NCBI RefSeq assembly: GCF_003254115.1
Contig: NZ_QKZV01000001.1
Span: 465,585-529,584, forward strand
DNA length: 64,000 bases
Reading direction: 5' to 3'
Source of the DNA: Hydrotalea sandarakina
GTDB lineage: Bacteria; Bacteroidota; Bacteroidia; Chitinophagales; Chitinophagaceae
The notes beneath the pieces were generated by a model. The model did not search any database and was not told where the DNA came from. It saw nothing but the letters and a program-made list of their open reading frames with translations. Position numbers and translations under genes: made by a program. Numbering within the stretch: the first letter of the stretch is position 1; the number at the start of each line of letters is the position of its first letter. Positions 81 through 55,841 of the stretch are shown piece by piece.

Positions 81-1349
81 ATGGAAATAAAGAGGCTTAG
101 TTTTGTAAATATGTACCGTTTTGTTGTTTTATTTATTGCTGCCTGTTCAAGTATCATTGCCTTACCTGCACAAAATTTAACGGGCATTTGGCGTGGTTTT
201 TTTATACAAAAAAATTATAATCCATTTTCAGGGCAATTTGTTGAAGATCGTTATAAATATGAAGTTCAAATTAATGAATTACCCAATAAGGCTTTAGAAG
301 GGGTAACCTATTCATATAAAACAACCGTTTTTTACGGAAAAGCGGCATTTAAAGGATTGTTTACACCTTCTACAAAAAATATTATTATTAAAGAAACGAA
401 AATGCTGGAAATTAAAGCCAGCGATTTAAGTGTGCCCTGTTTAATGACCTGCTATTTAGATTACAGCAAGGATGGTAAACAACAAATTTTAAGTGGTACA
501 TTTTCAAGTATAGGTGAAAAAGACAAAAATGATTGTGGCAGTGGTACGGTTTATTTAATGAAAGTTGCAGAATCAGATTTTGAACCGGCACCTTTTTTAA
601 AACAAAATCCTCAAGTAAAGCAAAATAATAATTCTGATTTACCAACTGGAAATACTGCCGATATTGCGAATAAAAACATACAAAAAATTCAACAAGCATT
701 AGGATTAACTCCCGATGGCAAATGGGGACCCAAAAGTAAAGCAGCATTAATGAGTAAATTACCCCAATTTCAGGGTGAATTAAATTTTGCCAATACAAAC
801 GCCATTAATGCTATTATTCAACAAATTGAAAACATTAACAAGTCTAATTCACCAAAAAAACAAACACAACCCAACTTGGCTATTCAACCTAAGCCAAACG
901 AATTAAAATTGAATTTAATTGATACAACCCACCCAGAAACTAAAAAAGAAGTGACTTTGCCCCCACCCGCAGAAATAACTACAAGGAAAAATAAATTAGT
1001 AAAAGAAATTTTTGTAAATGCAGCAGATGTTAAAATTGATTTTTATGACAATGGGGTTATTGATAATGACAGCATAACTGTATTTGATAACAATAAATTG
1101 GTTGTTAATCATGCCCGATTAAGTGAAAAACCCATTACTATCAATTTGCATTTATCAACTGAAGCACCAACTCATGAAATTATTACTTATGCCAATAACT
1201 TAGGAGATGTTCCACCAAATACCGCATTAATGGTAATTACGGCAGGTAACGAGCGACATGAAATATTCATTACATCCGATGAAAGTAATAATGCCAAAGT
1301 AATAATAACTTATAAACCCAAAACGGTACAAGTACAACGAACTTATTGA
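81..1349 (+). CDS. Secreted protein with peptidoglycan-binding-like segment and DNG-type C-terminal domain
   Basis: This is a 422-residue exported protein of unknown function. The N-terminus has a Sec signal (hydrophobic stretch about 12-28 ending LPAQN). Met11 at position 111 is an equally plausible start and would give a more compact signal peptide. Residues about 30-165 form a beta-rich region I do not recognise. Residues about 200-232 (IQKIQQALGL, TPDGKWGPKSKAAL) have the PG_binding_1 pattern of short helices around a D-G-x-W/F-G-P motif, which suggests contact with peptidoglycan. A Pro/Asn/Lys-rich linker follows. Residues about 318-415 are a compact domain with motifs FYDNGVIDNDSITV and NLGDVPPNTALMVIT. 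That domain recurs at the C-terminus of the OmpA-family protein at 49397-52162. The gene converges on the lipoprotein at 1364, with 14 bases between them. The family resemblance is seen in the sequence; a cell-envelope role is inferred. Confidence 0.75.
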   Translation: MEIKRLSFVNMYRFVVLFIAACSSIIALPAQNLTGIWRGFFIQKNYNPFSGQFVEDRYKYEVQINELPNKALEGVTYSYKTTVFYGKAAFKGLFTPSTKNIIIKETKMLEIKASDLSVPCLMTCYLDYSKDGKQQILSGTFSSIGEKDKNDCGSGTVYLMKVAESDFEPAPFLKQNPQVKQNNNSDLPTGNTADIANKNIQKIQQALGLTPDGKWGPKSKAALMSKLPQFQGELNFANTNAINAIIQQIENINKSNSPKKQTQPNLAIQPKPNELKLNLIDTTHPETKKEVTLPPPAEITTRKNKLVKEIFVNAADVKIDFYDNGVIDNDSITVFDNNKLVVNHARLSEKPITINLHLSTEAPTHEIITYANNLGDVPPNTALMVITAGNERHEIFITSDESNNAKVIITYKPKTVQVQRTY

Positions 1350-1363
1350 ATAAATAACAATTT

Positions 1364-1951
1364 TTATTGATTAAATTTTAAAGAATCAACCAAAGTACCA
1401 CAAACAATTTTACTTCCGGGTAAGTACGGATTTTGAATGGTTGTTGAATTACTTAACCAATCTGCACCCGCATTGTTGAATGCTTTATCACAATGAAAAT
1501 GATAAACCGGAGCTTTGCTGTATTGAACAGTTCTAACAAGGTCGTACAATGCTTGGCTTATCGTAGCAAAATCTTTTAATTTTTCTTGCAAAGAGGTTTC
1601 AGCAACCAATCCCTTTAAATCAGCCTGTATTCCGGTAACATTTTCTTTCGCAGTTTCAATAATAATTGAGTCTGCTTTAAGTAAGTTAAAAGGCAAACTA
1701 TCACTTGCTATTATCATATTTTCTGCAGCAGCATTGGCATTGTTTAATTGCTGATTGTATAAAGCATTTGATATGTCATAATATTGCTGAAGAAAATTAG
1801 TAAAAATTGAATCAAACTGTGTTTGGTGCTTTGAAACCATTAAAGGCGAATCTACATTTGGAGAAACATCAACCTTCTTGTCCTTTTGCTTACAGGCTAT
1901 TAATCCTATTAAAAGCATTACACTTAAACAACCATTAACTACTTTGCACAT
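1364..1951 (-). CDS. DUF3347-domain lipoprotein
   Basis: A 195-residue lipoprotein: the signal peptide ends in a lipobox (LIGLIAC, Cys20) followed by a Lys/Asp-rich tether. The rest matches the pattern I know from DUF3347. A helical part carries YYDISNALYNQQLNNANAAA at about 57-76. A C-terminal part reads YHFHCDKAFNNAGADWLS, then NPYLPGSKIVCG. In many Bacteroidota this domain is attached to CusB-like metal-efflux adaptors, where the His/Cys motif is thought to contact copper. Here it stands alone with His, Cys and the late Cys retained. A periplasmic metal-binding role is inference. No efflux pump gene lies nearby. Transcribed leftward, convergent with the gene at 81. Confidence 0.72.
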   Translation of the reverse strand: MCKVVNGCLSVMLLIGLIACKQKDKKVDVSPNVDSPLMVSKHQTQFDSIFTNFLQQYYDISNALYNQQLNNANAAAENMIIASDSLPFNLLKADSIIIETAKENVTGIQADLKGLVAETSLQEKLKDFATISQALYDLVRTVQYSKAPVYHFHCDKAFNNAGADWLSNSTTIQNPYLPGSKIVCGTLVDSLKFNQ

Positions 1952-2063
1952 AATCTTACTTTATTTAAAGGTTAAATTCAAATGTAGGAAAATAGAATCA
2001 TAAATATTACATAAAATAATTCCAATATATAAATTTACATTCGCTTCATTCCTACCCTAAATA

Positions 2064-2071
2064 TATCTTTG
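2064..2071 (+). promoter_or_regulatory. -7 promoter element of the ABC-F gene
   Basis: TATCTTTG fits the Bacteroidetes housekeeping -7 consensus TAnnTTTG. It ends 21 bases before the ATG at 2093. The TTG at 2069 lies inside this element, so a TTG-initiated longer protein would start upstream of the transcript. That supports the ATG as the true start. No clear -33 TTG is visible. Confidence 0.55.
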
Positions 2072-2092
2072 CCGAAATCATACTGTTTTAAA

Positions 2093-4030
2093 ATGCTGAT
2101 AGGCTTACAAAATGTAACATTTGAATTTGGTTCAAGAATAATTGTTGAAGATGCTACCTGGCATATACAACCCGGTGACAGAGTTGGATTGATTGGGTAT
2201 AATGGTACGGGTAAATCAACACTTTTGAAAGTATTAGTGGGTGAATATACTCCTACAAAAGGGGTGGTTGAAAAAGGAAAAGATACCACCATTGGTTACT
2301 TACATCAAGACCTATTAAGTTTTGATACGAATGATTCTATTTTAGAAGTTGCAATGGGTGCATTTGAAAAAGTAAAACAACTGGAAAAAGAAATTGAAGC
2401 CATTGCGAAACAATTAGAAACAACGGAAACAGAAGCATTACTAATGGAATATACCCATAAATTGCATGAGTTAGAAGAAGCGGGAGGATATACCATTCAT
2501 CATAAAACGGAAGAAGTATTACAAGGCCTTGGCTTTCAAAACTCCGATTTGCAAAAACCCTATAAACAATTTAGTGGCGGTTGGCGAATGCGGGTTCTGT
2601 TAGCCAAAATGATTCTACAACAACCTGATGTTTTGTTATTGGATGAACCTACCAACCACCTTGACTTACCTTCTATTGAATGGTTAGAAAAATATTTAAA
2701 ACATTACCAGGGAAGTGTGGTAATAGTAAGTCACGATAAATATTTTTTGAATAAAATGGTGAATAAAATTGTGGAGTTATACCAACAACAGCTCCACATT
2801 TATGCGGGTAACTTTGATTATTACGAAAAAGAAAAGGAACTACGCATTGAATTACAGCAAAAAGCATATGAAAATCAGCAGGATTATATTCGACAACAAG
2901 AACGTTTTATTGAGCGTTTTCGATCGAAAGCCACCAAAGCTGCGGCAGCACAAAGTGCCATAAAAAGATTGGAAAAAATAGATCGATTAGAAAACGTGAA
3001 CATAGAAAGGCCAAACATTAAAATTAATTTTCAGATAGAAAAACAACCCGGTAAAATTATTTGTGAACTCAAAAACATTCATAAAAGCTTTGGCGACATA
3101 ACATTATTAAATAATGCACATGCCGAAATTGAAAGAGGCGACAAAATTGCTTTAATAGGCGCAAACGGAAAGGGAAAATCCACTTTACTTAGAATTATTG
3201 CCGGAACGGAAACCCAGGAAGGGAATAGAATTTGGGGGCACAATGTTCAAGAAAGCTTTTATGCCCAACATCAATTGGAAGCATTAAACTTAAACAATAC
3301 TATTTTAGAAGAAATGCAATCCTGTGGGAGTAACAAAACTGATCTGGAATTGCGCAGTTTATTAGGTTGCTTTTTATTTGGCGGTGATGATATTGATAAA
3401 AAAATTCGTTTGCTCAGTGGAGGTGAAAAGGCACGTGTAGCATTGGCCAAGGTAATTGTTAGTAGAAGTAATTTTTTAATATTAGATGAACCTACCAACC
3501 ATTTAGACATGCATTCGGTTGAACTGTTGGCAGAAGCTTTAAATAAATATGAAGGAAGTTATTTGTTGGTGAGCCACGACCGTTTTTTTATTGATAAAAC
3601 TGCCAATAAAATTTGGGAAATTGTTGATCAACAAATAAAGGAATTCAAAGGCACTTATCGTGAATGGCTGGATTGGAATGAGCGAATGGCTAAACAACAA
3701 AATTCAGCTAAAAATTCAGCCCAGGAACCCATAAAATCAACTCCTCCAAAAAATACTGATACAGAGCAGAAAAAACAAAATACCGGTAATGCACAAAAAA
3801 AGGAATATGCACAAGTTCAAAAAAAGTTTCAACAAACAGAAGCTTTACTGGAACATTTAAATGAACAAAAGTTGGAACTTGAAATGTCATTGGCACACCC
3901 TAATATTTATAAGGAACCTCAAAAAATGGCTGAATTAGAGAAAGCGTATCAAACTGTTGTACAAAAATGGAATGAAGCGCAAGCTAACTATGAAAGCTTG
4001 TTTGAAAAATTAATGGAATTAGAAGGTTAA
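2093..4030 (+). CDS. ABC-F family ATP-binding protein (Uup/EttA-like)
   Basis: A 645-residue soluble protein with two tandem ABC ATPase domains and no membrane segment, the ABC-F layout. Domain 1 has Walker A GYNGTGKST (about 35-43), signature FSGGWRMR (about 159) and Walker B LLLDEPTNHLD (about 182). Domain 2 has Walker A GANGKGKST (about 356), signature LSGGEKAR (about 440) and Walker B FLILDEPTNHLD (about 461). The linker between them is the charged helical PtIM type. The C-terminal about 110 residues are a Lys/Gln-rich segment and coiled coil, as in Uup. Members of this family act on the ribosome or on branched DNA; which applies here cannot be read from sequence. The ATG at 2093 is preferred over an in-frame TTG at 2069. 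The stop overlaps the stop of the convergent gene at 4027 by 4 bases. Confidence 0.93.
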   Translation: MLIGLQNVTFEFGSRIIVEDATWHIQPGDRVGLIGYNGTGKSTLLKVLVGEYTPTKGVVEKGKDTTIGYLHQDLLSFDTNDSILEVAMGAFEKVKQLEKEIEAIAKQLETTETEALLMEYTHKLHELEEAGGYTIHHKTEEVLQGLGFQNSDLQKPYKQFSGGWRMRVLLAKMILQQPDVLLLDEPTNHLDLPSIEWLEKYLKHYQGSVVIVSHDKYFLNKMVNKIVELYQQQLHIYAGNFDYYEKEKELRIELQQKAYENQQDYIRQQERFIERFRSKATKAAAAQSAIKRLEKIDRLENVNIERPNIKINFQIEKQPGKIICELKNIHKSFGDITLLNNAHAEIERGDKIALIGANGKGKSTLLRIIAGTETQEGNRIWGHNVQESFYAQHQLEALNLNNTILEEMQSCGSNKTDLELRSLLGCFLFGGDDIDKKIRLLSGGEKARVALAKVIVSRSNFLILDEPTNHLDMHSVELLAEALNKYEGSYLLVSHDRFFIDKTANKIWEIVDQQIKEFKGTYREWLDWNERMAKQQNSAKNSAQEPIKSTPPKNTDTEQKKQNTGNAQKKEYAQVQKKFQQTEALLEHLNEQKLELEMSLAHPNIYKEPQKMAELEKAYQTVVQKWNEAQANYESLFEKLMELEG

Positions 4031-49396: not shown

Positions 49397-52162
49397 TTAC
49401 TGCTTCTTCAGTTTTACAAAGTATATAATGGTATTGTGCATTAAATCATTTGAAATGCTTACCTCTGTACGTTTGCCGGTATCATCAGTAATAACCATTA
49501 ATGCTGAGTTTGGCGGTATTTCTCCCAAATTCTCTGCAAAGAATATCATTTCATTGCGTTTTTCATTAGGCTCAACCGGCACTTTGAAGCTAATGGCTTT
49601 ATCGGTTTTTAACTCTTGTTTGTACACAATAATTTCTGAATTATAAATTACAGATACACTATCGTGGTCATAAGTACCATTATCATATAAATCAACGTGC
49701 ACAGAATCTGATGTGGTATAAACTGTAAATACCTGATTAATTGAACGATGATTGATAGCTGTTAATAATAGTCTGCTCTTAATTTCAGAAATAGAATCAA
49801 GGGTTGCTATCTTTCTGTCTTTTTGTTTCAGTTCATTTTCCAAATGTGCCGGTAGGGCTTGATTAACAACATTATTATTATTGTTCGATGTAACTGGTTT
49901 TGACACATATGGATTATTTGCTGCAGCATTCTTTTGGGCATTTTTTTCTTTGGCAGCTGCCTTACGTGCCTCTTTTTCAGCTTGTAATCTTGCCCTACGC
50001 TCAGCCGCAGCTCTAGCTTTCTCTTCACGCCTTAAACGAGCAGCTTCAGCTTCTTGTTGTTGTTTCAAACGTTTTTGTTCTCTTAATTCAGCTAAATGCT
50101 CTGCCCTTGCTCTTGCTTTTTCTTCACGCAATAACTGTCTCTCTGCTTTTAAATTATTATTAGCCTTTGTAGTAGGTTCATCAGGAATATACCTGAATGG
50201 ACGTCGGCCATTGGTAATATCATCTAATATTTGATCAATATCCAATTCTTTTCCTGATGGAACCCATTTCGGATTCTTAGCCTTGGTAACAATAATATCT
50301 GAACGTCGATTGACAATTTGTTGAGCAGTATCATAGGTAGCATCATCTTTACAAGGTAAGATTAAGTGTTGTTCGCCATAAAAATCAACATTAATTCTTG
50401 ATGCAGCAATATGATGCTTGATTAAGTACATTTTTACTGCTAATGAACGAGCTTTTGATAAACGCAAATTCAAATCAAATTTACCTTTACAATCGGTGAA
50501 TGAACCTATTACCACATTGTATTCAGGATTATCTTTTAATAATTGAATAATGGTATCTAAGCTATTTTTGTCTTCAGGTCTTACTTTGGCTTTATAAAAA
50601 TCAAAGTTTACTGAAACGCGTTTAATAGTAGCACTATTCAGTGAATCTAAAATATGTTTCCTTCTTTCAGCTTCTTCATCTAATTTGTTCACAGGAATTG
50701 AAACTACAGGAACATTATTCTTTGCACTGGTATCAGGTGTATTCAACTTTGAAGAATCAATGGGTTCGGGTTGTTTAACCTCAGGCAAAGGAGGGAGTTT
50801 GATAGATTGAAATATTTCCAAACAGCATGGCGATTCTCTATCAGAAGTTAAATAACTTGTATCTGCATTGCCAAAACTATCATAATAAATATCATCTTTA
50901 ACTGAATTAATGGGAAGCCCTAAATTTTCAGCAGTGTTCCATTGGTTGGAAACAATATTGCCTTTGCTTTTATAAATATCCATGCCACCAAGCCCTACCC
51001 GTCCGTTTGAGCTAAAATAAAGCATACTGCTATCTGCTAAAAATACCGGGAACATATCATCATCAGGTGTATTAATGGCAGCCCCCAGGTTTTCAGGTGC
51101 AGCATTGGGTAAGCCAAAACTATTTAATGAAACTTTCCATATATCATATTTACCCAAACCGCCGGGCCTATCGGATGCAAAAAATAAATATTGTCCATCT
51201 TTTGTAATGAATGGATGCCTTGCATTATACCCGGGGGCATTGACGAAACTATCTAATGCAAAAGGTTTATCCCAAGGCGCATCAACCGATGAACGTGTAG
51301 CCGTATAAATAAGATATTTGTTGGCATCTGATTTTTGGTCTTCATTCCATCCTGTAAAATATACCCGTAAGCCGTCAGCCGAAAACTGCGCTGCTGCTGC
51401 ATCATAAGGTAATGTTTGTTGAAATAATTTTGAAACGGTATTTTGATTGGTATTGTATTGATATAAAGCAGAACGATAGATTACCTGTTTATTTTTTCCA
51501 ACTGTATCAGGCCTTGAGCTTGAAAAAACAAAAATACTGTCATTCAATTTTGCATAAGCATAGTTTGACCCCAAGGCATTAATTGGTGAAGGCAATTTTT
51601 GAATAGTAAAGCGTTTAACATTTTGTTGTTGTTCAATATTGAACCTGCAATCGGCCATTTCTTTCAAAGCCAACGCAGTATAGCTGTCTTGTTGTGTGTA
51701 TTCTGTTGTAAATTTTGATAACGCTTCTATTGCTTTTTCAGGTTCATTCATTGCCCTTAATGAAACTCCGTACCACAAATAAGCCATAACATCTGGCTTC
51801 TTTTCTAAACTTAAATATTTTTCATAATTAGGTAATGCATCTTGATAGTCATGATACAACCTGTATGACTCTGCTAACTGGTGTAATAAATATATTTCTT
51901 TTGCTCCTTTGGGTCGTTTACCATGTTTGTGCACAACAGGTGTATAAGGCAATACGTCTTTGCTGTCAAAGTTACCATACAAAGCTTTGCTGTACAATTG
52001 TGCAGCACCATAGTAATTTTTTTCTTTAAACAATTCATCAGCTCTTTTCGTATAAGCGCGAATAGACTGAGCATTTAAGAGAGATGAAGATAAACACATT
52101 ACTATGATAGCAGTAATGCATTTTGGAAATAACGGAGTTAGTAATGTTACACGTTTTACCAT
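49397..52162 (-). CDS. OmpA family protein with TPR, PD40 propeller, coiled coil and DNG-type C-terminal domain
   Basis: A 921-residue envelope protein. In order: signal peptide (SSLLNAQS), TPR-like repeats (about 33-190: ADELFKEKNYYGAAQLYSKA and following), a WD40-like PD40 propeller (about 200-480: ADGLRVYFTGW, KDGQYLFFASDRPGGLGKYDIW, DSSMLYFSSNGRVGLGGMDIY), an OmpA C-terminal peptidoglycan-binding domain (about 515-640: VNFDFYKAKVRPEDKNSLD, LRLSKARSLAV), a very charged Arg/Glu/Ala coiled coil (about 680-770), and a C-terminal domain (about 825-921) with YDNGTYDHDSVSV and NLGEIPPNSALMVIT. This resembles PorE/SprE-neighbour OmpA proteins of the type IX secretion machinery. The C-terminal domain is shared with the gene at 81. 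Regulation: separated from PorP by a terminator. Confidence 0.92.
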   Translation of the reverse strand: MVKRVTLLTPLFPKCITAIIVMCLSSSLLNAQSIRAYTKRADELFKEKNYYGAAQLYSKALYGNFDSKDVLPYTPVVHKHGKRPKGAKEIYLLHQLAESYRLYHDYQDALPNYEKYLSLEKKPDVMAYLWYGVSLRAMNEPEKAIEALSKFTTEYTQQDSYTALALKEMADCRFNIEQQQNVKRFTIQKLPSPINALGSNYAYAKLNDSIFVFSSSRPDTVGKNKQVIYRSALYQYNTNQNTVSKLFQQTLPYDAAAAQFSADGLRVYFTGWNEDQKSDANKYLIYTATRSSVDAPWDKPFALDSFVNAPGYNARHPFITKDGQYLFFASDRPGGLGKYDIWKVSLNSFGLPNAAPENLGAAINTPDDDMFPVFLADSSMLYFSSNGRVGLGGMDIYKSKGNIVSNQWNTAENLGLPINSVKDDIYYDSFGNADTSYLTSDRESPCCLEIFQSIKLPPLPEVKQPEPIDSSKLNTPDTSAKNNVPVVSIPVNKLDEEAERRKHILDSLNSATIKRVSVNFDFYKAKVRPEDKNSLDTIIQLLKDNPEYNVVIGSFTDCKGKFDLNLRLSKARSLAVKMYLIKHHIAASRINVDFYGEQHLILPCKDDATYDTAQQIVNRRSDIIVTKAKNPKWVPSGKELDIDQILDDITNGRRPFRYIPDEPTTKANNNLKAERQLLREEKARARAEHLAELREQKRLKQQQEAEAARLRREEKARAAAERRARLQAEKEARKAAAKEKNAQKNAAANNPYVSKPVTSNNNNNVVNQALPAHLENELKQKDRKIATLDSISEIKSRLLLTAINHRSINQVFTVYTTSDSVHVDLYDNGTYDHDSVSVIYNSEIIVYKQELKTDKAISFKVPVEPNEKRNEMIFFAENLGEIPPNSALMVITDDTGKRTEVSISNDLMHNTIIYFVKLKKQ

Positions 52163-52312
52163 GCTAATGTTATAAAAGAGAAATTCTATGTGTGAATATA
52201 GGCACTGTTTTCAGCACATAGGTAAAAAATGCCCAATAAGTTTTTAACATTATGTGGGTAACTATTTCTTGCACATTTCACATTTTTGTAGATATTATGT
52301 GTTTCTACACTG

Positions 52313-52346
52313 TAAAAAAAAAGTTATTCTGTTCAATCAGAATAAC
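52313..52346 (-). terminator. Terminator after the PorP/SprF gene
   Basis: A perfect 9-base stem GTTATTCTG/CAGAATAAC (52323-52331 with 52338-52346) with a 6-base loop. On the minus strand a T10 tract follows (plus-strand A tract 52313-52322). It separates the CHU_C-PorP unit from the OmpA gene, which must have its own promoter in 52163-52312. Confidence 0.85.
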
Positions 52347-52374
52347 CTTGCACTAACCCAATAAGCTGATAGGA

Positions 52375-53361
52375 CTAAAGACGGGGGCAAATAAATTTGG
52401 TAGCAGGAATTTTTTTGCGATGTACATAACTTATGGAAATTTCGTATGCACCACGGTATTGTGAAGCTGTATTTAAAGATGATACATTAATATCATAACT
52501 TAACCCAACAATAAAACCATTTAAGTTAATTCCAATATTGGGCGCTATGGCATCATGATTTCTATACATTATACCTGCTATTAAATCTTTTGTATAATCG
52601 AGTGTGTAATTCATATACAACCCCCCTGCTAATTCACTGGCGGCACCTTGCATTTCATAAACAACATGGGGTGTTAATTGTACTAAATCACTCACAGCAA
52701 TTCTTGTTCCGGCATGAAAAGAATAACGAATAGGTATAAAGCTGTTGCTGGCTTGCAAAAATTTATCTGTTGGTTGTGTAGGATGGTATAAACTTACTCC
52801 AACAAAAGGATTTATTTTTTTATGAGGATCACCATCATAATACATAACACCAACGCTTCCATCTAAAGTATAGGCTGATGTTTTTGAAAAAATTTCATTA
52901 GATGGTAAAGTAGGGTCATATCCTACCAATGGATTAAACTGATTTCCAAATTTCAATTTTGATGGATCAACACCCCGATAAATGAAACCCAATTGAAAGC
53001 CACCACTTAAACGCTTGTATTCACTTAAATGAACTTGATAGGATAATGATAAATAGCTGTTGGTGTAATTATATCCACCATCGCCAGCAGTTTGGTTTAA
53101 TACCATTAAGCCTATTCCAAAATTATTCGGTAATGCGGCATCCAAACTAATTCCATTCGTTACTAAAGGTGTTGCTACCGACGACCATTGGTTTCTTGAA
53201 TTTGCTGTTGCGCGGTAATTCCCATCAATAACACCGGTCATTGCCGGATTTAACCACATTGGACTGGCATAATACTGTGTAAAATGCGGATCAATTTGTG
53301 CTTTTACCATTGTGGCACAAATTATAAAACCCAACATTATATAGTATTTCAATTGTCGCAT
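52375..53361 (-). CDS. PorP/SprF family type IX secretion system outer-membrane protein
   Basis: A 328-residue outer-membrane beta-barrel protein of the PorP/SprF family. The signal peptide ends MVKAQ. The mature N-terminus has the hallmark DPHFTQYYASPMWLNPAMTG. Further on are NQWSSVATPLVTNGISLDAAL, LSLSYQVHL, SGGFQLGFIYR and a late SYDINVSSLNTASQYRGAYEISISY, the typical closing strands. SprF-like proteins are known to help particular type B sorting-domain proteins across the outer membrane by the type IX system. The partner is clear here: the CHU_C protein gene ends 14 bases upstream on the same transcript. Confidence 0.94.
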   Translation of the reverse strand: MRQLKYYIMLGFIICATMVKAQIDPHFTQYYASPMWLNPAMTGVIDGNYRATANSRNQWSSVATPLVTNGISLDAALPNNFGIGLMVLNQTAGDGGYNYTNSYLSLSYQVHLSEYKRLSGGFQLGFIYRGVDPSKLKFGNQFNPLVGYDPTLPSNEIFSKTSAYTLDGSVGVMYYDGDPHKKINPFVGVSLYHPTQPTDKFLQASNSFIPIRYSFHAGTRIAVSDLVQLTPHVVYEMQGAASELAGGLYMNYTLDYTKDLIAGIMYRNHDAIAPNIGINLNGFIVGLSYDINVSSLNTASQYRGAYEISISYVHRKKIPATKFICPRL

Positions 53362-53375
53362 ATTCAGATATTACC

Positions 53376-55841
53376 TTATCGAATTAATGTTATTGAACCA
53401 CTTTTCTTTACTTTCGAATCGTTTTGCAATGTAGCTTCGAAAGTATAGTAATAAACTCCCACCGGCATTTTGGTGCCATTGTATGTACCATCCCACCCTT
53501 GCGATTGTGCATTACTAATATATAGCAATTGTCCCCACTGATTATAGATGGATAACTTCATTGTTTTAATGGTATTTCCATAAACATAGAAAACATCATT
53601 ATTACCATCGCCGTTAGGTGTAAATGAATTGGGTATAAAAATAGCATCACCAATAGGATTCAAGGTAGTTGCCGAAACTGAACCAGGCGCACTTTCTTGA
53701 CAAGGCAAATTGCCTAATGCTTTTACTTGGAAATTAATGGTTTGATTTGGTCCTAACCCTGTAACTAATTCTTCTAAAGCAGTTGGTCCAGCTGCAGGTA
53801 ACTGAAAGGTGGTACCGTTATCTAAACTAATTAAGTAACTAGTAGCTCCCGGAACAGGTTGCCAAGAAAATAATATGCTGTTTGCTGTAACAGTATCTGC
53901 AGTAACAACAGGTGTACTTAAAGCAGTTGCAACTTTTATACTAATGGTTGCATTAGTTGCCGCACAAATGGGTGGATTGGTATTGGCCAGCACCACATAA
54001 TTTGCATTAGTATTAATTGCAGGTGTTACATAGGTAGTACCGGTAAACAATAAAGTATTGTTACCAACCATGTACCAATTATATGTTACCCCTGTTTGTG
54101 GAGAAACAATAGTCAATGTATCTTTTCCTCCCGGGCAAACAGTATCTGAACTTGCTTGTATTGTAAAGGGTTTAGGACTAGTTGAAAACTGTACTTTAGT
54201 ACTGTCGGTAACTTTACAAATGCTATCAGTTATAGTAACTTTATAAATTCCATTGGTATCAACGGTTATACTATTGGTTGTATCACCGGTTGACCACAAA
54301 TAACTACTAAAACCGGTACCGGCGTTTAAAACTTTAGTTGTATCATTACAAACTGTAGTTACTGCTGCCAATTGAGATTTTAAAGCATCAACTTTTATTG
54401 TTACTTGCCCTTTACACACATACGGACTATCTGTGTAGGTTACTGTGTAAGTAGTTGTTTGTGAAGGAACAACTTTAATGGTTGTTGTAGTATCGCCTGT
54501 TGACCATACCAAAGTAGGTTTGGGTGGCTTTACTAATGAAGAGTCAGGATAGTAAGCCCAAATACCATCAATTCTTGCCCAAATTACACGTTTTGCAATC
54601 GGATCGTAGTATGAATAACCATTGGAGGTGTTCATAGGTGCCGGTGGTGGAATGGCACCCGTACCAACAAATTCAGTAAATCCGGTATCAACACCCCAAT
54701 TAAATCGAAATGTTTTATTGGTATTCACTAAATATTGGTTTAATGGATAATCGCCCGATGGTTGAAATCCACCAAACAAATAAAATCTATTTTTATCATA
54801 ATCATACGATAAAACTCCTTCATATTGAATGGAGCTGTTATTCGTAGGTAGAATATTGGTGAAGGTATAAGTGTTTAAGTCTAATGCATATAAATCTCTC
54901 AACCAACAAAACATGCCATTAGCGGTTGCCCAAGGACTACCTAATGAACAGGTACCGCTTAATTCATTGCCATCACAACTTCCTTGACCTGAAAAAAGGA
55001 ATAATGTTTTTCCATCTGCAGAGGTACCCATTAAGTTACCCCCTTTGGGCGGATTGCAATCGCTTAAATTAGGCCGTTTCTGAATCCAGGATAAATTATT
55101 TTCAAAAATCCAGTTTTTAACTGTAAAGCCACCATATCCGCCATAAAAGCCAGGGCTATTGGTTATAGGGTTCCAATAACTGCTGGCATTATAACTGGTA
55201 TTATCAAAAGCACCGTTACCAATTTGTGCCCATGCACCTCCACTTGCAGAAACTGCATAAACATTATCTGTTCCCGCACGCCATAATATTAATCTATTAT
55301 TGGTGTAATCGTACGTAAATTCGGTATAGTTACCCGGCCAACCGGGCCAATTGCTTGCCGGAATTTCTGTTTTAATATTATTCTTTAAGTCGTAACGAAT
55401 AATATGCTGATTGATGATGGAATATAAATATTGATTGGCTTTATCATACCCGTAAGGTTTTATGTTAAAATTAGCCTGATCAATACCACTGCTACCAATT
55501 AGTAAAACCCATACTCCCGGGGGCTCACTATCAACATGTACCGGTTTAATTGCTGTTAAAGTAACCGTGTCGCCTTTACAAATGGTTGTATCATTTTGTA
55601 CAATCATTTTAGCAGGACAAGAAAAAGGGGGAACACTATCAAAACTTTGCATACCTACACCAGTAGGACTTTTGAGCGATTTGATAGAAGCATTTAATGG
55701 GAGATGTTGACTTTGAATTTGTCGATTTTCAAGTCCCCCCAATGTAGGCTTTGCAACATTTAATGTATTACCGGAAGAGAAACCCAATAATACAAATGCA
55801 ACAAAAACCAATAAGAACGTTAAAGTAAAATACTTATTCAT
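53376..55841 (-). CDS. Type IX-secreted surface protein with CHU_C (type B) sorting domain
   Basis: An 821-residue secreted protein. Signal peptide to about residue 25. A Cys-containing segment follows (FSCPAKMIVQNDTTICKGDT, about 72-91). Residues about 100-430 hold Kelch-like repeats (LIGSSGIDQANFNI, TYDYTNNRLILWRAG, TLFLFSGQGSCDG, SYDYDKNRFYLFGGFQPSGD). Two Ig-like/PKD-type SprB repeats with STGDTTTTIKV and LWSTGDTTNSITV lie around 445-545. A fibronectin III-like module (PVVTADTVTANSILFSWQPVPG) is followed by the C-terminal gliding-motility/CHU_C domain (FIPNSFTPNGDGNNDVFYV, GWDGTYNGTKMPVGVYYYTF). This is a type B type IX cargo, likely surface-displayed or released adhesin. It is co-transcribed with PorP/SprF. 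Confidence 0.93.
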   Translation of the reverse strand: MNKYFTLTFLLVFVAFVLLGFSSGNTLNVAKPTLGGLENRQIQSQHLPLNASIKSLKSPTGVGMQSFDSVPPFSCPAKMIVQNDTTICKGDTVTLTAIKPVHVDSEPPGVWVLLIGSSGIDQANFNIKPYGYDKANQYLYSIINQHIIRYDLKNNIKTEIPASNWPGWPGNYTEFTYDYTNNRLILWRAGTDNVYAVSASGGAWAQIGNGAFDNTSYNASSYWNPITNSPGFYGGYGGFTVKNWIFENNLSWIQKRPNLSDCNPPKGGNLMGTSADGKTLFLFSGQGSCDGNELSGTCSLGSPWATANGMFCWLRDLYALDLNTYTFTNILPTNNSSIQYEGVLSYDYDKNRFYLFGGFQPSGDYPLNQYLVNTNKTFRFNWGVDTGFTEFVGTGAIPPPAPMNTSNGYSYYDPIAKRVIWARIDGIWAYYPDSSLVKPPKPTLVWSTGDTTTTIKVVPSQTTTYTVTYTDSPYVCKGQVTIKVDALKSQLAAVTTVCNDTTKVLNAGTGFSSYLWSTGDTTNSITVDTNGIYKVTITDSICKVTDSTKVQFSTSPKPFTIQASSDTVCPGGKDTLTIVSPQTGVTYNWYMVGNNTLLFTGTTYVTPAINTNANYVVLANTNPPICAATNATISIKVATALSTPVVTADTVTANSILFSWQPVPGATSYLISLDNGTTFQLPAAGPTALEELVTGLGPNQTINFQVKALGNLPCQESAPGSVSATTLNPIGDAIFIPNSFTPNGDGNNDVFYVYGNTIKTMKLSIYNQWGQLLYISNAQSQGWDGTYNGTKMPVGVYYYTFEATLQNDSKVKKSGSITLIR

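Follow-up and report, generated by a model that had tools for sequence, protein, structure and literature searches.

A widespread, unnamed C-terminal domain of Sec-exported Bacteroidota proteins with a possible role in T9SS-like sorting or docking

The window, a 64,000-nt stretch of the Hydrotalea sandarakina genome (contig NZ_QKZV01000001.1), contains open reading frames at positions 81-1349 (plus strand) and 49397-52162 (minus strand), whose products we hereafter refer to as P0001 and P0002. P0001 (422 aa) consists of a signal peptide, a calycin/lipocalin-like N-terminal β-barrel (residues 35-162, positions 183-566; eight strands in the AlphaFold2 model), a PG_binding_1-like insert (residues 185-223, positions 633-749), a Pro/Lys-rich linker, and a C-terminal domain (residues 303-411, positions 987-1313) delimited by profile, alignment, and a nine-stranded model. 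The insert scores 16.7 bits against PF01471, below the Pfam gathering score of 23, and an orthologue (L037) lies above it at 26.9 bits. Foldseek returned weak nitrobindin and streptavidin matches for the barrel (E ≥ 5e-3). In 61 genomes, every strong match to the barrel has the C-terminal domain as well, and no exchange of the calycin module between this domain and T9SS tails was seen. P0001, a small lipoprotein gene (1364-1951, minus strand), and an ABC-F gene (2069-4030), together spanning positions 81-4030, form a neighborhood that is conserved in many relatives; the P0001 orthologues have thrS, infC, and rplT on their opposite side. As candidate operon partners, these five recurring neighbors look like conserved housekeeping gene order rather than a functional unit, and no dedicated shuttle gene was found to recur beside carriers of the domain.

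P0002 (921 aa) has a PorE-like architecture of TPR, PD40 propeller, and OmpA peptidoglycan-binding domain (positions 50348-50605, minus strand; PF00691 51.1 bits, cut-off 27.2), after which come a basic spacer and, at the end, the C-terminal domain (residues 817-915, positions 49418-49714, minus strand; profile match 105.5 bits). PD40 and OmpA score over their cut-offs and TPR below its own (E 1e-4). Against the T9SS_PorE model NF052230, the protein reaches 216 bits, under the curated whole-protein cut-off of 600. It is adjoined by a gene for a PorP/SprF-family outer-membrane protein (52375-53361, minus strand; PF11751 181.8 bits; TIGR03519 206.7 bits, cut-off 90.55), which in turn adjoins a protein with a T9SS type B C-terminal domain (53376-55841, minus strand; PF13585 and TIGR04131 over cut-off). 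This minus-strand row of type B cargo, PorP/SprF, and PorE-like protein (49397-55841) matches the situation in Porphyromonas gingivalis, where the type B cargo PG1035, PorP, and PorE form one complex (PMC9143113).

A first-pass annotation, made from the sequence alone, had proposed that the two proteins share their C-terminal 100 or so residues. BLASTP bears this out, aligning residues 299-404 of P0001 with residues 803-910 of P0002 at 35% identity and 60% positives over 108 columns (68.6 bits, E 2e-16) and delineating a common domain of approximately 107 residues, in which 36 columns are identical. The first of two motif blocks reads DNGVIDNDSITV in P0001 and DNGTYDHDSVSV in P0002, and the second reads NLGDVPPNTALMVIT and NLGEIPPNSALMVIT, respectively. 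Both blocks are present in both proteins as described, but their spacing is not exactly equal, as had been claimed; the blocks are 50 and 51 residues apart, indicating a one-residue indel between them. The proteins do end shortly past the domain, with 13 residues remaining in P0001 and 6 in P0002. A third, partial copy to which the annotation alluded does not exist in the window, in partial or whole form: a six-frame profile search recovered P0001 and P0002 alone, the next best match being a 32-aa segment with an i-E of 0.13. Searching the whole genome with the profile likewise yielded two copies and no third; one candidate (L003) with an initial E of 0.04 fell to an i-E of 1 with a better profile and was dropped.

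Using a profile built from these two sequences, we found matches in 41 of 61 related genomes. A 65-row profile detected the domain in 187 of 299 Chitinophagales genomes and in 62 of 393 genomes sampled across Bacteroidota; many of the 62 belong to one family, whose largest genus is seemingly Flavobacterium. Named GTDB contigs hold at least 587 candidate stretches that code for relatives, and among the best 80 of these are Sediminibacterium, Hydrotalea, Flavihumibacter, Ferruginibacter, Segetibacter, and Cnuella. The annotation knew no functional name for the domain, and we found none: when single members or 65 diverse members were scanned, neither Pfam nor NCBIfam nor the PDB sequences offered a credible match. 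Near-matches to Ykof, DpnI, and other Pfam families were single, sub-cut-off, and different from member to member, and a Lin-12 match among PDB sequences (E 0.57) was attributable to chance. As a control, a type A tail profile from the same genome retrieved solved T9SS tails from the PDB, showing that the PDB sequence search works. In PHROGs, 9 of the 65 members matched one unnamed family, phrog_12858 (best E 3.6e-6). A limited literature search of open-access papers likewise found the domain neither annotated nor described. We conclude that this is a real and widespread C-terminal domain that lacks a name.

AlphaFold2 predicts the domain to be a nine-stranded β-sandwich (66 aligned sequences, mean pLDDT 84, pTM 0.77), and a model of full-length P0001 (pLDDT 81.6 overall, mostly above 90 within the domain) reproduces the same domain fold. 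This prediction of a common fold supports the view that the domain is genuine and uncharacterized. Foldseek against the PDB returned nothing at E ≤ 0.001; the weak matches were Ig-like or other sandwiches, among them the calcium lectin LecB (TM 0.37), and no T9SS tail was present among the 50 matches listed. Conserved residues concentrate in two loops, one between strands 2 and 3 and the other between strands 6 and 7. In a set of 278 distinct proteins, D323, D328, D330, and G375 (P0001 numbering) are invariant, and N380 and P379 are retained in 276 and 273 proteins, respectively. These loops, which hold the Asp/Asn pattern that the annotation had pointed out, are the most conserved part of the domain. 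The three invariant aspartates form the D-x4-D-x-D loop of P0001 (positions 1047-1070, plus strand), aligned by motif with DNGTYDHD in P0002 (49661-49684, minus strand); the second loop, N-L-G-x-x-P-P-N-T in P0001 (residues 373-381, positions 1197-1223, plus strand), aligns with NLGEIPPNS in P0002 (49505-49531, minus strand). If the strands follow an Ig-like order, the two loops may lie at the same pole of the predicted sandwich.

In all 278 proteins, no more than 50 residues separate the end of the domain from the C terminus, and in 264 no more than 20, so that the question raised in the annotation of whether it is always C-terminal can be answered in the affirmative. Two copies occur in 2/278 proteins, and a clearly internal copy in none. 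In a pair of proteins with the domain twice (L103:5987-7264 and L105:5608-7170), the first copy is the more divergent. By a simple heuristic, approximately 200 of 215 scored proteins carry a Sec type I signal; we note that this heuristic is rough and mislabels several proteins, including P0001, as lipoproteins.

More than 15 unrelated modules precede the domain. The largest partner group includes the eight-stranded calycin-like barrel seen in P0001; others are PorE/OmpA/PD40, WD40, two-component-type propellers, WG repeats, helical proteins, LamG with HYR, legume lectin with SprB repeat, M16 peptidase, and AhpC/TSA thioredoxin. Carriers also include lipoproteins (L210, L221) and possible outer-membrane barrel fusions (L097, L211), for which an amphipathic-strand test on the sequences is suggestive (P 0.04 and 0.03); a third candidate, L332, was not significant. 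The linkers preceding the domain contain 12% Pro and 13% Lys. The M16 peptidase with the domain at its end is encoded at L064:3732-6956, and an open frame of ~1,070-1,120 aa with the domain in four genomes of one genus (g233) is likely the same protein. Several Chitinophagaceae (L053, L055, L057, L058, L059, L063, L070, L072, and L073) have adjoining gene pairs of ~375 and ~280 aa, each member of which combines a calycin-like N-module with the C-terminal domain.

These partners narrow the earlier idea that the domain is joined to peptidoglycan-binding domains. That link stands for P0001, P0002, and close relatives but not in general: an OmpA domain was seen in P0002 and close orthologues but nowhere else, the PG_binding_1-like insert is found only in P0001 and some relatives, and the majority of the 278 proteins lack both. 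The cell-wall reading holds only for P0001, P0002, and their close relatives.

Genomes that encode the domain also encode SprA, without exception in both the phylum and the order samples. SprA is present in 62/62 domain-positive genomes of the phylum sample, compared to 320/393 overall, and the domain is absent from all 4 SprA-negative genomes among the 299 of the order sample. Naive hypergeometric P values, which ignore descent, are 8e-7 for the phylum, 0.004 for the class (based on six SprA-negative genomes among those listed), and 0.02 for the order. The co-occurrence is confounded by descent, and SprA-negative lineages are few. The Hydrotalea genome itself encodes SprA, and nine tails of type A and another nine of type B score over cut-off in it. 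In several Flavobacterium-type genomes (L214, L216, L217, L219, and L222), there are one or two genes for secreted proteins of ~190-275 aa, in which a low-complexity N-terminal part precedes a divergent version of the domain with the C-terminal consensus SNEWNLATG; no family model matched the ones that were scanned.

A link to the slot occupied by T9SS tails, which the annotation had not considered, is what the evidence points to. A 190-residue N-module that we call A9 is followed by a type B tail in 20 proteins, by a type A tail in one, and by the new domain in 17 distinct proteins; all A9-module proteins that are complete in the DNA examined end in one of these three. A9 homologues with T9SS tails occur in relatives, the Hydrotalea genome included, and one genome (G031) has the new-domain form together with a second A9-module copy of 684 residues. 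In a tree of A9 modules, the rows with the new domain group together as a single clade nested among those of type B (support 91/79), and this topology of aligned sequences fits a single exchange of a type B tail for the new domain. Kinship between the tails is not indicated by sequence: the domain has no match among the T9SS tail models TIGR04183/PF18962, TIGR04131/PF13585, and NF033708 in the Pfam and NCBIfam scans, and hhalign gives probabilities of 0.4%, 0.2%, and 0.7% for types A, B, and C. The same method gives 77% for type A versus type B and 23% for type A versus type C, and as the latter value is low for two known tails, this comparison can miss remote kinship. Identity with type C was rejected, as NF033708 is absent among the matches listed for 65 members up to an E of 10 and hhalign assigns the 0.7% above.

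Because of its terminal position, the Sec signals and varied partners of its carriers, the exchange in the A9 slot, the restriction to SprA-encoding genomes in the samples, the predicted sandwich, and the T9SS of the same genome, the best-supported reading of the domain is as a new T9SS-like C-terminal sorting or docking domain, a reading that we advance tentatively. We hypothesize an autonomous Ig-like β-sandwich that forms the very end of Sec-exported proteins in Bacteroidota and would be recognized by an outer-membrane factor linked to the T9SS, most likely through a surface formed by the D-x4-D-x-D loop and the N-x-G-x-x-P-P-N-T loop. The preceding module would thereby be exported, retained, or docked. 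In P0002, which is PorE-like and expected to be periplasmic, the domain would not be exported and would instead dock to the adjacently encoded T9SS outer-membrane complex of PorP and type B cargo. The PorE-like and barrel-like fusions suggest that the domain can also act in the periplasm. A more specific version, in which the domain is a fourth class of T9SS sorting signal, unrelated in sequence to types A, B, and C, found in Chitinophagales and Flavobacterium-type bacteria, recognized by its Asp loop, and doubling as a docking handle on PorE-like proteins, is conceivable and more doubtful.

Several observations weigh against sorting: no sequence kinship links the domain to tail types A, B, and C, the 50 Foldseek matches listed do not include a T9SS tail, the A9 exchange is a single event, the SprA link is confounded, a recurring shuttle gene is absent, and some partners (PorE/OmpA, M16, thioredoxin, lipoproteins, possible barrels) belong to the periplasm or membrane. 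These last can be accommodated by a periplasmic envelope tether that, similar to the OmpA C-terminal domain in function and unrelated to it, would sit behind a Pro/Lys-rich spacer and fasten soluble, membrane-embedded, or lipid-anchored proteins to either the cell wall or some partner in the periplasm, with no export across the outer membrane. The linker composition and the fusions to PorE/OmpA, PG_binding-like, M16 peptidase, thioredoxin, and barrel-like proteins fit such a tether, as do the periplasmic location of PorE and its binding to peptidoglycan (PMC9143113, PMC7192894). We consider a tether less likely than sorting or docking; P0001 and P0002 already have wall-binding segments of their own. 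LamG/HYR and legume lectin/SprB modules usually belong to surface cargo, as does A9, whose other homologues carry a type B tail, and this also speaks against confinement to the periplasm. Since some partners nevertheless fit the periplasm, we liken the domain to those that sort or dock T9SS cargo but refrain from assigning it to a T9SS tail family.

The same loops could instead serve ligand binding, with the Asp triad coordinating calcium, the sandwich holding a glycan or peptide, and the end position reflecting domain order only. The invariance of D-x4-D-x-D in 278/278 proteins, the near-invariance of the second loop, the weak LecB match, and the retention of D-x4-D-x-D in a similar C-terminal segment of distant Bacillota phage tail proteins are all consistent with this idea, but a plain binding module would be expected to occur internally or in tandem at times, and the scarcity of double copies and lack of clearly internal ones make it improbable. 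We give still less credence to a structural C-terminal cap that stabilizes exported proteins and is conserved for folding only. Turn Gly, Pro, and Asp residues can indeed be kept for folding, and there is a weak Ig-like resemblance; yet the N-terminal partner folds are unrelated and occur elsewhere without the domain, and a generic cap leaves the C-terminal confinement in 278 proteins unexplained.

T9SS cargo prediction relies on known C-terminal tails. A further tail class would therefore add unrecognized candidates for surface or secreted proteins in most Chitinophagales. T9SS genetics are established in Flavobacterium, and with relatives of the domain in Flavobacterium-type genomes, the sorting idea is directly testable in Flavobacterium johnsoniae. 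Should the domain prove to be merely a periplasmic tether, it would still represent an envelope domain that is common, has no name, and carries an invariant acidic loop.

Among known systems, T9SS tails were divided into three classes in a 2023 review, in which type C is the third sequence family (PMC10202324). The domain resembles type A tails (PF18962, TIGR04183) in its extreme C-terminal position, its length of ~100 residues, its predicted β-sandwich, and its occurrence on many unrelated Sec-exported Bacteroidota proteins. It differs in that kinship is absent by hhalign, the Por_Secre_tail motifs are missing, and nine strands are predicted, compared to the seven of the Ig-like sandwiches seen in solved type A tails (PMC11285876, PMC12618676). 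With type B tails (PF13585, TIGR04131), it shares a slot on homologous A9 N-modules but no sequence kinship. A 2025 study shows that dedicated PorP/SprF shuttles recognize type B tails (PMC12618676), whereas the new domain has no recurring PorP/SprF neighbor except at the P0002 locus. The likeness to type C (ChiA type, NF033708) is the C-terminal position, set against an hhalign probability of 0.7% and the absence of NF033708 among the families listed. Compared to PorE-type OmpA/PD40/TPR proteins, P0002 has the same TPR-propeller-OmpA order and a gene beside porP and type B cargo but possesses ~290 extra residues with the domain at their end. Outside Bacteroidota, a tail-hub-like protein of a Parageobacillus phage (L235:2762-4360) has a C-terminal segment resembling much of the domain, and a similar protein lies on a 54,976-base Anoxybacillus element with phage-like tail genes (L236:1-531 with L237:4904-5977). 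These segments match the domain at E values of 2e-4 and 3e-5. Similarity to phrog_12858 and to the Bacillota phage tail hub segments is weak; the phage segments, which are C-terminal, keep D-x4-D-x-D followed by an N-G hairpin but differ in that the identity (~29-32%) extends over only part of the domain, the P-P-N-T loop is lacking, and they have no known function.
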